Virus record (IMG/VR): IMGVR_UViG_3300020704_000001
Location: 1 to 64,000 of that record
Direction: 5' to 3' (one strand)
DNA from: a virus
DNA: 64,000 nt
Shown: one piece after another, positions 14,802 through 19,960 of the stretch
Layout of the letters: each line of letters begins with the position of its first letter
Position numbering within the stretch: the first letter of the stretch is position 1
The notes under the pieces: generated by a model
What the model was told of the DNA's origin: nothing
Databases searched by the model: none
The model's input: the letters and a program-made list of their open reading frames with translations, nothing else
Program-made: the position numbers and the translations under genes

Positions 14802-17225
14802 TCACACTCTAATATTTGAATATAACATACTCAACAACATTGGTTCATCGTTTCTAACGCTTAACATTGGTGCTGTTTGAGGTTTTTGTTGTACTTGTTG
14901 TGTTGGTTGTGTTGGTTGTTGTATCACAATAGGTTGTTGTGGCTTTCTTGCTTGTTCTGCTATTTGTTTTAAATTTTCTTGAACAGAGTCAGGCGCTTTT
15001 TGTATTGGTGTTTGTGCATTTTGGACATCAGCAAGGATATTTCCAGTTGTATTTTTTTCTGGTTTTTCTAAAGAAGCTGTATTCTTTTGTGCAGTTTCAA
15101 GGTTTTTGTTTATTGGTCCAACATCTATAGATCCGTCATTTTTTGCTGTTTCAAGATGGTTTAGTTGCATTGAATCCATTGTAGCATTTATATTTGCTAA
15201 TTTTTGACCGTAATTTGGATCAGTAGCATAACCCGTTTTTGCTTGTGCTGCTATAGCTTCATCAACATTTTTAGCAGCCAAAACATCCTTATATCTTTTA
15301 TTATTTTGCAGAAAATCTATATAATCTCCTGCAGAATCTTCAGGATTATCATATTTTCTAAAATTTTGGTCTTTTGTGACCATTTTCCCATTTTCAAATT
15401 CTTGTGTTGATGCAGTTACACTATCTCCACCTGCTTTAGCTTTAATCCCAAACGCATTATTTCCAACCATATGTTTTCCATAACCTGTTTCTAATGACGT
15501 TTGTGTTGCTCCCAATTTAGCAATAGCTTCAGGGTTTTCTACACCTTTATCTTTTGCTGCTTTATATAAAGAATCATACATCTTATCATAATACTCTTTT
15601 TGTTCTTCCTTTAGAGGTTTTCCCGCCTTCCCTTCTATTTTTTCATGGTATCCAGGAGGTCTTTGATCTCCAGGTTCGAAAATGTGTTTCACAGATTCTT
15701 TTACTTTTGACCATTTTTGACTTATACTTTCCCCAAGTTCCTCGAAAAACCCCTTTTTATCTTCTGCATTACTAAATAATCCAGTTCCATCAGGAAGAAT
15801 TAATTCTTCAATGTTTAATTGCTTGATAGAAACAACACCAAAATTTAAACCTTTTTCTTTTTCTATCGGAATATTAATTTCAGGATTAGATTCTACCGTA
15901 TTAAATTCATTTGTTGGTGGTTCTTCTATAATTCTTGTTTGTAAATCTGGAGCAATATTTTGTGGTATTTTCTCTTGCAATGAATTGTCAACAGGCATTT
16001 CATCTGGATTAAATTTTCCAACATTTTTTGCTAAATCATATGCAGCTTGTATTTCAGATGATAACTTATTTCCCATTTGTATGGAAACTTCAGAAACAGC
16101 CATTTGTTTTTTTGATAATGGTCTATTTGGAATGACAGGTTCTCCTGCAACAAGAATTGAATTGGTTGCAGTTTTTGTTGATGAAACATCTAAATTACTT
16201 GTTTTACCTGTAACTCCATTTTGATCGGTTGCTTCGGTTGCAATTTCTTTTCCAGAATCATCAATCTTTGGTGGGATTATTTTAGTTTTTGTTTGTTGTT
16301 GCATTGCAGGGATTCTTGTTGCAGCAATAGGTTCTTTCATTATTTGTTTAAGTGTTCCTAAATGTCCACCTTCAAATTTTCCAGAATCTATCAACATTGC
16401 AATTTGTTCTTTTGGTAATGTTTTCAAATAAGAAACATTTTCAATAGTTGGGTTTATAAACTTCCAAGAAATTACTTTTTTTGCTAAAAGAGTTTTAAAT
16501 AATTCTCTGGTCTTTGGATCTGGCATATCCAATATCATTTCGCCGATTTCTTTTGCGGCTAATACTGTAGCAACAGTTGCACCAACTGGTCCTGCTACTA
16601 ATGGTCTTGCTAATCTAAACGCAGTTGTTGCACCCCTTTTAATTCCTTTCCATGCAGTACTAGCAATTCCCCCTGCTGCTGCTCCTTCTAATGCACCTTC
16701 TGCCACACCTGCTAATGTTGAACCTAATCCACTACCTTCTTTATTTTCTTTTTTATTTTCATCACTAGAATTTTGTTGAGATGCAGTTTGTTGCAAATTT
16801 CCAGTTTCATTCATTCTCGCTACAACATTAGCATTAGATAAACTTGATTGTGTTTGATTTAAAATTGAATTCCTAGCTAATAATGCTGTATATGCTGAAA
16901 TTTTTTCAACAGTAATATTAAGTTTAATTAAATCGCCATGAATTTTATTCAATGCTTGTAGAGCAGTTTTACTGTTTCCTTCTGTCAATATAGAATTTGT
17001 TCCTGCACCAGCAAGGCTACTAATATCAACAGGTTGCCCATTACCCTTATTATTTTGAGAACCTGTTGTCTGATTTATTGGAATTGTATTAATATTAGAC
17101 TTTTTAGGAGTTAATTCCTTATCTTTTCCTTGTTTAAGAGCATTATATGCTCCATATAAAGAACTGCTTGCAGTTAAAGTTCTTGTTGACTTTATTGCTG
17201 ACCCAATACTCGAAAAAATTGACAT
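14802..17225 (-). CDS. Tail tape-measure-like protein with FlgJ-type glucosaminidase domain
   Basis: This 807-residue protein combines a helical N-terminal part, hydrophobic Ala/Gly segments near 175-235 (LGSTLAGVAEGALEGAAAGG, RPLVAGPVGATVATVLAAK), a long low-complexity middle, a glucosaminidase domain at about 535-682 and a Gln/Pro-rich tail. The hydrolase domain shows LGATQTSLETGYGKH (likely catalytic Glu in SLETG), GNNAFGIKA, FRKYDNPEDSAGDYIDFL and TGYATDPNYGQKLANI, as in FlgJ. It lies directly after gp26 and its frameshift extension, the place of a tape measure. A likely role is to set tail length and open the peptidoglycan during DNA entry. The gp5 homologue here has no lysozyme domain. 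Assignment as the T4 gp29 equivalent rests on position. Confidence 0.75.
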   Translation of the reverse strand: MSIFSSIGSAIKSTRTLTASSSLYGAYNALKQGKDKELTPKKSNINTIPINQTTGSQNNKGNGQPVDISSLAGAGTNSILTEGNSKTALQALNKIHGDLIKLNITVEKISAYTALLARNSILNQTQSSLSNANVVARMNETGNLQQTASQQNSSDENKKENKEGSGLGSTLAGVAEGALEGAAAGGIASTAWKGIKRGATTAFRLARPLVAGPVGATVATVLAAKEIGEMILDMPDPKTRELFKTLLAKKVISWKFINPTIENVSYLKTLPKEQIAMLIDSGKFEGGHLGTLKQIMKEPIAATRIPAMQQQTKTKIIPPKIDDSGKEIATEATDQNGVTGKTSNLDVSSTKTATNSILVAGEPVIPNRPLSKKQMAVSEVSIQMGNKLSSEIQAAYDLAKNVGKFNPDEMPVDNSLQEKIPQNIAPDLQTRIIEEPPTNEFNTVESNPEINIPIEKEKGLNFGVVSIKQLNIEELILPDGTGLFSNAEDKKGFFEELGESISQKWSKVKESVKHIFEPGDQRPPGYHEKIEGKAGKPLKEEQKEYYDKMYDSLYKAAKDKGVENPEAIAKLGATQTSLETGYGKHMVGNNAFGIKAKAGGDSVTASTQEFENGKMVTKDQNFRKYDNPEDSAGDYIDFLQNNKRYKDVLAAKNVDEAIAAQAKTGYATDPNYGQKLANINATMDSMQLNHLETAKNDGSIDVGPINKNLETAQKNTASLEKPEKNTTGNILADVQNAQTPIQKAPDSVQENLKQIAEQARKPQQPIVIQQPTQPTQQVQQKPQTAPMLSVRNDEPMLLSMLYSNIRV

Positions 17226-17246: not shown

Positions 17247-17438
17247 TTACCTATTACCTTGTTTTTGTAAATCTGCTTGTTCTTTTAAATAATTTACTAA
17301 TAAACTCACATATATTTCCCGTTCCCAAGGAATCATTTCATCAAGCTCTCGCAAACTATAATTATGGTGTTGCATTAAACCAAAATTTGTTTTATAATAG
17401 TACGCAAGATCTTCACTACCAAGAATTAATCGAAAAAA
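17247..17438 (-). CDS. -1 frameshift extension of gp26 (gp51-like tail assembly chaperone part)
   Basis: This 61-codon frame has no ATG, GTG or TTG before its conserved-looking core. It reads SEDLAYYYKTNFGLMQHHNY, then SLRELDEMIPWEREIYVSLL and ends QADLQKQGNR. Small proteins of this type (YYYKxNFxLMQxHxYSLxELExMIPWERE) follow gp26 in T4-like marine phages. The frame joins gp26 exactly at the slippery heptamer T TTT TTC (17438-17432) through a -1 shift, giving ...EDIFDF-FRLILGSED. The fused chain would be about 299 residues. The position directly before the tape measure parallels the G/GT tail assembly chaperones of lambda. Expression as a separate gene would need a rare ATT start or an unseen one. 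Confidence 0.75.
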   Translation of the reverse strand, partial: FFRLILGSEDLAYYYKTNFGLMQHHNYSLRELDEMIPWEREIYVSLLVNYLKEQADLQKQGNR

Positions 17439-18148
17439 TCGAATATATCTTCTACATCAATGTGGTGTTCTGTTCCACATTTTTTACACTTTAAATTTAT
17501 TTGTTTATGAATTTTTGGTTCATTTGCAAAAAAATTCCCTATTTTAGAGTACTGTTCCATAGTTAAATTTCCCAACCACTCAACAAGTTCTGCTTTTGGG
17601 ATATCTTGAGCACTATGAGAAGATGTTTCATCATAAATAAATTCAATGTTTTTTGCTACTAAATTAAATTCTTCTTCAGCAGTTAAAAATTCACTTTTTT
17701 TGATTATGTTCGGTTCAAATCTTTGAAAATTTAATTTAACACCAATTTTATCTGTTATTTGTATTGTTTGTGGCAATGCTTCGGTTATTTCCAAATCTGT
17801 TAATAAATTTAATCTGTGTAGCATTATCCCACCACAAATTTCCTCATCTACAACATTTTCGCATTTATATTTTAAATCGACACTTTCTGATTGAGATCTT
17901 GCTCTAAGTTGATAAAATAAAAATTCAATATCAGTTACAGGCAATTTTCTAGCATTTATTGGTGACAATACACAATTATCAACAATTTGTGCGATTGCTT
18001 CGATTAATGCTTCTGGCTCATTTGATTCAACAGCCATCAATAAGATTTTTTGTTCTTTCACAACATAAGGTCTAAATTTAACATCCTGTTTCGATACAGG
18101 AAGCTTTACAGTATATGTTGGAGAATCAATTTTTGGTAATAGTGACAT
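17426..18148 (-). CDS. 26: Baseplate hub assembly protein (T4 gp26-like)
   Basis: This 240-residue protein starts MSLLPKIDSPTYTVKLPVSK with FRPYVVKEQKILLMAVES, the pattern of gp26-type hub assembly chaperones. It has two cysteine pairs (KYKCENVVDEEICGG in the middle and LKCKKCGTEHHIDV near the C-terminus) that could bind zinc. T4 gp26 with gp51 assists assembly of the baseplate hub around the tape measure. The zero-frame product ends IFDFFD directly after the T TTT TTC heptamer, and a -1 shift adds 61 residues. AAGG lies ahead of the start, four bases after the preceding stop. Confidence 0.82.
   Translation of the reverse strand: MSLLPKIDSPTYTVKLPVSKQDVKFRPYVVKEQKILLMAVESNEPEALIEAIAQIVDNCVLSPINARKLPVTDIEFLFYQLRARSQSESVDLKYKCENVVDEEICGGIMLHRLNLLTDLEITEALPQTIQITDKIGVKLNFQRFEPNIIKKSEFLTAEEEFNLVAKNIEFIYDETSSHSAQDIPKAELVEWLGNLTMEQYSKIGNFFANEPKIHKQINLKCKKCGTEHHIDVEDIFDFFD
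17432..17438 (-). other. Slippery heptamer T TTT TTC for -1 ribosomal frameshifting
   Basis: In the gp26 frame the codons are GAT TTT TTC GAT TAA, so the bases fit X XXY YYZ with X = T, Y = T, Z = C. The stop lies one codon after the site. The -1 frame continues open for 61 codons into a conserved-looking peptide. Confidence 0.75.
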
Positions 18149-18152
18149 AATA

Positions 18153-18914
18153 TTATCCTTGGTTCAATGATTTAAAGTTTGGGTTTAAAATATTTGATTG
18201 TTGTGTTGGTGTTCCGAAATTTGGTGTTAAGTATGAATTAAGTGTTGTATTAAACGAATTAATTCCTGTATTAATTACTTGAGTTCCTGATTGTGGAACA
18301 ATATTAAAATTATTAATAGTTTCAGTAAAGTTTTTTGAATTTTCGTAAAAATTATATTGATATTCTGTATATGCAAATGTAACATTAAACGATATTGCTT
18401 GATTTTCAGCAGACCACGCTAATGGAATTTGACTTATTGCTATTGGGAATGCGTCGGTTAGTGTGCACGAAAGAAGTTTTTCTCCAGCAGATGTATAGTG
18501 TGTGATTGTTGGTTGACACACTATCTCATCTTTATATTTCACATTATATGTTGTATCGATACCATTTCCAATAACCTCTCCTCTGCCAGTAAAAAGTGCT
18601 ATCCATGTAAGGAATGTTTGCCTTACTTCTTCAATACCAAGACCTGGAGTGTAAAATGATAATGTAATATCGTTATATGCTGACATTATTGGATACTTTT
18701 CAACTACTCCATATATTTTTTGAGAAACTGTTGCAATAGATTCTCCTGGAAGTTCTGCTGAATGACAAAGATATGATAGTGTTTTTGTGTTTACATTTGA
18801 AAAGATTTTTGCTGCAAGACCTGATGGCGCAGGTATAGTAACATCAAAATATGCACTTCTTCCTATATCATATTTTAATAATTGATCTAATGCCCCTAAA
18901 TAATTAGTAGCCAT
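18153..18914 (-). CDS. Tail-tube-like baseplate protein (gp54-like candidate)
   Basis: This 253-residue protein has the gp19-type tube fold signals: a start with GRSAYFDVTIPAPSGLAAKI, LCHSAELPGESIATVSQKIY, a strand-turn-strand around YNDITLSFYT, a helix (VRQTFLTWIALFTG), and a closing strand pair (AFPIAISQIPLAWSA ... ISFNVTFAYTEYQYN). The last 50 residues are Asn/Gln-rich and probably disordered. Tube-like proteins of this length in the baseplate block act as the junction between hub and tail tube (T4 gp54). That equivalence is inferred from fold and position. GAGG precedes the start. Confidence 0.6.
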   Translation of the reverse strand: MATNYLGALDQLLKYDIGRSAYFDVTIPAPSGLAAKIFSNVNTKTLSYLCHSAELPGESIATVSQKIYGVVEKYPIMSAYNDITLSFYTPGLGIEEVRQTFLTWIALFTGRGEVIGNGIDTTYNVKYKDEIVCQPTITHYTSAGEKLLSCTLTDAFPIAISQIPLAWSAENQAISFNVTFAYTEYQYNFYENSKNFTETINNFNIVPQSGTQVINTGINSFNTTLNSYLTPNFGTPTQQSNILNPNFKSLNQG

Positions 18915-18923
18915 TGTTTATCC

Positions 18924-19517
18924 TCATTGTAATGAATCCATTGATTCTTTCCATACTTGTTGTTTTGATTTTTTCTTAAAATTTTCAAATGGTAATGCAG
19001 CTGCATATCCCCAATCATAAGGAGGTATTAATTTAATTCCACCCCTTATTTGTTTATATAAATATTGTTTAAAGCAAGGTTTAAACATTTGCATTGTTGT
19101 TATATTCTTCAAAATATCATAAGAAATTCTTAGTCTCTCTAATTCGCCATCTTTATATACCGATTTATCCAATAAATTGCTCAATAATATCATCCTAATA
19201 TTTATTGGTAAATAATGTAAATTTATCCCTTGAAAACCACCTTTTATAGTTCCCATCATTAATATTAATGGAAAAGTATCATAATATGGCAAAGAAGTTT
19301 TTAATTTTGGATCATAATGAAAAAGATACATTTTACCAACTTCAAATCGTTGAGTATTTTCTTCATTAAGAATTTCTTCTTCTTTTTGTTTTAATTCTTC
19401 AATTTCTACAGCTTTAGGATTTATTAATGTCTTTATTTTCCCTTTAAACCATTTAATTGATTCAAATGCCGAACTTAATGTTATCTTTATATTAAAATCG
19501 TCTTGACTCTTTAACAT
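18924..19517 (-). CDS. 2: DNA end protector-like protein (T4 gp2 candidate)
   Basis: The product of 197 residues has the core FEVGKMYLFHYDPKLKTSLP, YYDTFPLILMMGTIKGGFQG and INLHYLPINIRMILLSNLLD, a pattern annotated as gp2 in cyanophage-type genomes. T4 gp2 is a head/DNA end protein that shields packaged DNA from RecBCD. The ATG at 19517 overlaps the gp4 stop (TAATG) and is preferred over a start 14 codons further in, which would overlap gp4. Pairing with gp4 mirrors T4 (2, 4). The gp2 name rests on family pattern and neighbourhood. Confidence 0.6.
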   Translation of the reverse strand: MLKSQDDFNIKITLSSAFESIKWFKGKIKTLINPKAVEIEELKQKEEEILNEENTQRFEVGKMYLFHYDPKLKTSLPYYDTFPLILMMGTIKGGFQGINLHYLPINIRMILLSNLLDKSVYKDGELERLRISYDILKNITTMQMFKPCFKQYLYKQIRGGIKLIPPYDWGYAAALPFENFKKKSKQQVWKESMDSLQ

Positions 19518-19960
19518 TAGAAATTTACATCCTTTTCTGTTAGTGTCATAAATTGCCAATTTCTATCAAGACAATAAGATTTCGCAGCTTTCCATTTTGC
19601 CTGATTTACTGCATAAGTACAAACTTCAGTTATATACCGTTTTGTTATTCTCGTTTTTATTTGCGGTTCAATTGTTTGTGCATATGGTTTTATTTCTATT
19701 AAATATGCTTTAATTCTTCCATCAGAACCTTTTATTCTTGCAAATACATCAGGAAAATATCTGTGATACTTATTATCAACAGGAGATTTATATGGAATAA
19801 CACATTCTTCTGAATGCCACTCAACAACATTAGGGTTATTATCCATCCAATTAAATATTTTTATTTCCCAACTTGATCTTGCAGTTATATTTTCCCAATC
19901 TCCAAGGTATTTTTCTTTATTCTTTGGAACCCACTTTTTAGGTTTAGGATATTTGCTCAT
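19517..19960 (-). CDS. 4: Head completion protein (T4 gp4, gp50/65)
   Basis: This 147-residue protein is a TnsA/PD-(D/E)XK-like fold. It shows YLGDWENITARSSWEIKIFN, WHSEECVIPYKSPVD, the metal-binding segment YHRYFPDVFARIK and YLIEIKPYAQT, in the order of T4 gp4. gp4 finishes filled heads before tail joining and may act as a nuclease on protruding DNA. A divergent late promoter at 19989-19996 lies 29 bases upstream. Confidence 0.88.
   Translation of the reverse strand: MSKYPKPKKWVPKNKEKYLGDWENITARSSWEIKIFNWMDNNPNVVEWHSEECVIPYKSPVDNKYHRYFPDVFARIKGSDGRIKAYLIEIKPYAQTIEPQIKTRITKRYITEVCTYAVNQAKWKAAKSYCLDRNWQFMTLTEKDVNF

Follow-up and report, generated by a model that had tools for sequence, protein, structure and literature searches.

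A gene of the gp26 family ends in this virus one codon after a run of six Ts, and the −1 reading frame continues open beyond its stop. The question raised by the locus is whether that second frame is a small gene in its own right or the C-terminal end of a longer gp26 product. The window, that is, the whole stretch of 64,000 nucleotides analysed, is part of an 80,620-base IMG/VR virus record and has a GC content of 31.5%. By way of a −1 programmed frameshift, the locus very probably gives rise to a short and a long tail assembly chaperone, in the manner of lambda G/GT. The features concerned are listed here with the evidence for each.

18153–18914, minus strand: gene resembling a tail tube or tube initiator gene (PHROG 45 tail tube, 3.5e-30)
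17426–18148, minus strand: gp26-like gene for the short form (TAC-N), 240 amino acids (PF12322, PHROG 150, T4-type gp26 profile, AlphaFold2)
17432–17438, minus strand: slippery heptamer T_TTT_TTC, one codon ahead of the gp26 stop (sequence; 87 of 87 loci)
17247–17432, minus strand: −1 extension, predicted to be the C-terminal domain of TAC-NC, the long form and counterpart of T4 gp51 (PHROG 634, gp51 C-terminus profile, tblastn)
17350–17420, minus strand: possible weak downstream stem, extent approximate (97-nt fold of the window, −17.8 kcal/mol, z −1.43)
14802–17225, minus strand: 807-amino acid gene in the tape-measure position, whose product has a glucosaminidase (FlgJ-like) domain at its C-terminus (PF01832, 2.6e-22; PHROG 3513, 7.6e-39)

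The 3′ end of the gp26-like gene reads GAT (17440–17438), TTT (17437–17435), TTC (17434–17432), GAT and TAA, with the stop at 17428–17426. A preliminary description of this DNA had placed the heptamer T TTT TTC at 17438–17432, one codon before the stop, and the sequence agrees exactly. After a slip the −1 frame would be entered at CGA (17432–17430) and followed through 61 sense codons to a stop at 17249–17247, the open length given earlier. This extension begins RLILGSEDLAYYYKTNFGLMQHHNYSLRELDEMIPWEREIYVSLL; 5′ of the slip site its frame is open for just seven codons. The predicted frameshift product has 300 amino acids (239 + 61), against 240 for the short form, and the junction peptide of the long form is predicted to be IFDFFRLILGSED. 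The earlier observation that no start codon precedes the core of the peptide also holds: ATG, GTG and TTG are absent before codon 20 of the −1 frame in the window, and the first ATG, at codon 20, lies inside the conserved core 'NFGLMQHHN'. Heptamers of the form T_TTT_TTN occur in phase 11 times in the window (65 open reading frames, 20,165 codons). Only the one in gp26 combines a position close to a gene end with a long −1 extension, which reaches 58 codons past the stop; the runner-up reaches 6. At another gene end, that of the gp4-like head closure gene (window 19517–19559, minus strand), A_AAT_TTC stands at the stop, with an open −1 frame that belongs to the gp2-like DNA end protector gene. 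This is probably an ordinary gene overlap.

Both parts of the locus have relatives in the T4 gp26/gp51 family, a gp26-like domain and a gp51 C-terminal domain being present. The gp26-like protein matches PF12322 T4_baseplate (5.2e-50), PHROG 150 (1.1e-51) and a profile of T4-type gp26 (4.6e-24). The extension matches PHROG 634, named 'baseplate hub assembly catalyst' (5e-26), and a profile of the T4-type gp51 C-terminus (4.1e-11). It also matches the C-terminal end of PHROG 150 (3.5e-7), so that some PHROG 150 members must already hold both parts. A tblastn search with the extension retrieved 577 phage records, cyanophages in the majority, and among the matches listed the similarity begins at the slip site.

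The architecture of T4-type gp51 explains these matches. The protein, of about 250 amino acids, consists of a gp26-like N-terminal region of about 200 residues followed by the extension in one frame. PF12322 matches the N-terminal part in six of six T4-type gp51 proteins scanned, and a profile of this domain matches the marine gp26 family at 4.8e-13 and T4-type gp26 at 5.7e-18. The joint between the domains falls at the residue that matches the slip-site Phe. By homology, the extension is the C-terminal domain of gp51 and, because the N-terminal domain of gp51 is itself gp26-like, the predicted frameshift product is the counterpart of the whole of gp51. The preliminary description was thus right to call the extension gp51-like, although the peptide corresponds to the C-terminal domain only. 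Its proposal of two products from one locus is likewise supported, by the 87 conserved loci, the coding pattern of the −1 frame and the T4-type control described below. The longer product, which it had viewed as a gp26–gp51-like fusion, is better regarded as the counterpart of a complete gp51 than as a joining of unrelated proteins. In an unrooted tree, the frameshift genes, T4 gp26 and the N-terminal domains of T4 gp51 form three supported groups.

T4-type phages, which encode the long form separately and lack the slip site, serve as a natural control. On the T4-type contigs examined, the short gene is divergent to the in-frame long gene. Codon-by-codon reading of six T4-type gp26 genes showed no heptamer in any of them and a −1 frame that closes at once. 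As read from the genomes, the two forms come from two heptamer-less genes in T4-type phages, and would come from one gene with a −1 shift here and in most marine relatives. Not all Straboviridae share the two-gene arrangement of T4, since two members of that family, one of Schizotequatrovirus and one of Angelvirus (L011 and L118), have a single gene with T_TTT_TTC. The gp26 gene of the former, Vibrio phage TCU-VP03-AIR1 (662–1510 of the locus), is labelled deoxynucleotide monophosphate kinase, evidently a misannotation.

Conservation of the site was assessed in 92 loci with both parts, from IMG/VR and named phages, reduced to 87 non-redundant loci below 95% identity. An in-phase T_TTT_TTN heptamer and the common −1 peptide are present in all 87. 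The second slip codon is TTC in 72 loci, TTT in 8, TTA in 6 and TTG in 1; seven loci therefore encode Leu in place of the second Phe and still retain the six Ts, which indicates that the heptamer outlives the Phe residue. The residue before the heptamer may be Ser, Asp, Asn, Ala or His, and its codon always ends in T. Given the amino acids, and with loci treated as independent, the log10 P of the invariant T before the first Phe codon is about −17.8, and that of the invariant TTT as first Phe codon about −11.4. The gp26 stop follows within 0–2 codons in 80 of the 87 loci and after 8 codons in the other seven. Over codons 3–18 of the −1 frame, variability at the three codon positions is 0.95, 0.75 and 1.48 bits. 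The third position is the most variable straight past the gp26 stop and ahead of the usual first start, which argues that the −1 frame is coding there. The site also occurs in more distant phages, among them a KVP40-type Vibrio phage, phiN3, Cr30, Stenotrophomonas phage Ps15, Agrobacterium phage OLIVR5 and Aeromonas phage AsFcp_4; in Rhizobium phage RHph_I1_18 it is T_TTT_TTA.

Relatives of the window differ in the signals that surround the slip site. In 47 of the 87 loci (L005–L102), an SD-like GGAGG or GAGGG lies 15–18 nt before the first Phe codon and ends 8–9 nt upstream of the heptamer. Anti-SD pairing in relatives averages −6.3 kcal/mol, compared with −4.8 kcal/mol for synonymous shuffles. 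An SD-like stimulator upstream of a slip site is reminiscent of dnaX, and the upstream sequences in these relatives are a candidate translational stimulator. No such element is present in the window, where the duplex reaches only −0.4 kcal/mol, and none is claimed for this phage. A stimulatory RNA structure downstream of the site was also considered. Folding of single sequences gave a mean z of −1.4 downstream and +0.1 upstream. A consensus search in 30 aligned relatives found no pair, leaving the stem without covariation support; given this result and the z of just −1.43 for the fold in the window, the structure was dropped.

A variant of the site was observed in Ackermannviridae (L020, L021, L111, L112 and L117). 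These loci keep the −1 extension (FHLMFETDLLSYF) but have N_NTT_TTY, for example GAA ATT TTC ATT TAA, in place of a canonical heptamer. Vibrio phage K475, for which no family is given, has an N_NTT_TTY site as well. In phages selz and May there is no ATG at the junction of gp26 and extension. It is conceivable, though somewhat doubtful, that lineages tune the frameshift differently, with an SD-like stimulator in many T4-like relatives, its loss here and a non-canonical N_NUU_UUY in Ackermannviridae. The ratio of short to long form would then be set by different cis signals.

Most records annotate the extension in another way, as a separate small gp51-like gene with its own start or with termination–reinitiation at the gp26 stop. 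Several place the gp51 start right past that stop or with a one-base overlap, and an ATG does lie among codons 1–12 of the extension in 31 of the 87 loci. All 31 nevertheless keep the heptamer, so that an early ATG is nowhere accompanied by loss of the slippery site. The preliminary description had suggested following both the heptamer and the missing start through related loci; the former is conserved throughout, whereas the latter is not universal. Before codon 20 of the extension, ATG is lacking in 45 of the 87 loci, the window included, and ATG, GTG and TTG are all lacking in 20. Where ATG is lacking, the annotated starts fall within the conserved domain. Among the records examined, a separate gp51 is called with too late a start or the extension is missing. 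Among the matches listed, homology starts at the slip site, 5′ of any start codon, and the AUG at codon 20 in the window has no Shine–Dalgarno-like stretch, unlike the next gene, which has AAGGA before 17225. An independent gene would also leave the conservation of the heptamer without explanation, and this reading is improbable.

Two further accounts concern the T run itself. Long-form mRNAs might be produced by RNA polymerase slipping on the Ts, which are found at every locus, with no ribosomal frameshift involved. Efficient polymerase slippage in E. coli usually needs roughly 8–9 Ts. The run is exactly six in 79 of the 87 loci, which speaks against such an origin; moreover, the run lies in phase and puts TTC in the A site, in keeping with tandem slippage of tRNAs, and the SD-like sequences 8–9 nt upstream in 47 of 87 loci fit a stimulator of translation. 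Transcriptional slippage is accordingly rated very unlikely. Alternatively, the Ts might be kept merely to encode a needed Phe–Phe pair, the −1 frame being a relic; T4-type gp26 does carry a C-terminal FF (GLKEFF) without frameshifting. Its FF codons vary (TTC TTT, TTT TTT) and are preceded by G or A, however, and hence form no T_TTT_TTN, whereas in the frameshift loci the preceding codon always ends in T despite five different residues. The seven loci without a second Phe retain the six Ts, and the −1 frame is under amino acid constraint. No related locus was seen in which FF persists while the heptamer is broken and the −1 frame has decayed. A need for Phe–Phe is hardly credible as the whole explanation.

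Programmed −1 frameshifting remains the preferred reading because the heptamer is universal, the −1 peptide is conserved, starts are often absent, T4-type phages encode the corresponding protein, gp51, in a single frame, and the genes are ordered tube, gp26, extension and tape-measure-like gene. Slippage at this site, its rate and the chaperone role of the products are what we infer from these features. The mechanism may be envisaged as follows. (i) Most ribosomes would stop at TAA and release the 240-amino acid short form (gp26, TAC-N). (ii) A minority, with P and A sites both occupied by tRNA-Phe on U_UUU_UUC, would shift back by one base and so bypass the stop. Tandem slippage of the two Phe-tRNAs is the simplest route. 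(iii) The slipped ribosomes would add 61 residues to yield the 300-amino acid long form (TAC-NC), which corresponds to T4 gp51. (iv) If the analogy with lambda G/GT holds, the freshly synthesised tape-measure protein, probably the 807-amino acid product, would be coated by many copies of the short form and a few of the long. (v) The chaperone pair would then, on the same analogy, pass the tape measure to the tube subunit in tail assembly.

The neighbouring genes are consistent with this role. On the minus strand the order is gp4-like head closure gene, gp2-like DNA end protector gene, tube-like gene, gp26 with its extension, and the 807-amino acid gene. Positional counterparts of the last are annotated as tape measure in Cr30 and Rhizobium phage RHph_I1_18, and a small gene sometimes intervenes. 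PHROG tape-measure models gave no match to the 807-amino acid protein; its position suggests that it is probably the tape measure. The glucosaminidase or FlgJ-like domain suggests that the protein may cut the cell wall besides measuring the tail.

Structure models add suggestive evidence only. The AlphaFold2 model of gp26 (pLDDT 93.4) has the HK97 tail assembly chaperone 2OB9 as its top match in the PDB, a weak one (probability 0.77, E 0.48) that may hint at a chaperone fold. Against predicted viral proteins, the model matches other gp26 and gp51 proteins. For the long form, a T4-type protein was modelled. In that model (pLDDT 91.8) the extension forms helices after the gp26-like domain, and a search of the PDB gave no match to a chaperone fold. 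A sequence search of solved structures found none for gp26 and a chance match only for the extension.

Several known systems invite comparison. Vladimirov, Gautam and Davidson (Virology 566:9–15, 2022) reportedly found the frameshift conserved in several T4-like groups, with T4 using genes 26 and 51. The PRFect paper (PMC10885494) names Vladimirov et al. 2022 as the source for T4-like phages in which frameshifting is replaced by a short gene plus a longer fusion gene, and the Adele paper (PMC12846349) cites the same study for poly-T slippery signals in T4-like TAC-N genes. As far as these citing texts convey it, the published TAC-N/TAC-NC pairs share with the present locus the gp26 family, a poly-T slippery sequence and a −1 extension; the phage studied here represents another, uncultivated lineage. 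The step of reading gp51 as a long form is reportedly already part of the 2022 literature. From the marine single-gene form, gp51 can be recognised as the long version of gp26; both would accordingly rank as tape-measure chaperones, a role that becomes testable in T4. What is added here is a large conservation count, a candidate SD-like stimulator and the annotation of gp51 starts, which are placed late or missing. What remains new is the stimulator pattern, together with the variant site of Ackermannviridae.

The lambda slippery heptamer is GGGAAAG, and thus differs from that of the phage studied. Lambda G/GT and the HK97 gp13 type nevertheless have in common with it a short protein, a −1 shift near its end, a C-terminal addition and, with the 807-amino acid product as the probable tape measure, a gene position between tube and tape measure. 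Sequence similarity to them was not found, and HK97 gp13 is linked by the weak fold match of the gp26 model. The gene order parallels lambda V-G-GT-H, if the 807-amino acid product is taken as the tape measure. In Vandenendeviridae and Andersonviridae (phage Adele, PMC12846349), there is again a −1 shift near the TAC-N end and an unannotated TAC-C downstream, but the motif is GTTTTT rather than T_TTT_TTC and the families are others. The N_NTT_TTY site of Ackermannviridae resembles the GTTTTT motif reported for Vandenendeviridae. Compared with T4, gp26 matches the short form and gp51 matches the short-form domain plus the extension; T4 differs in having two divergently transcribed genes, the long one read in a single frame, in place of one locus. 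The phage departs from the T4 gene arrangement and still belongs within the gp26/gp51 family, as a well-supported, expected and mostly unannotated case of the published T4-like chaperone frameshift.
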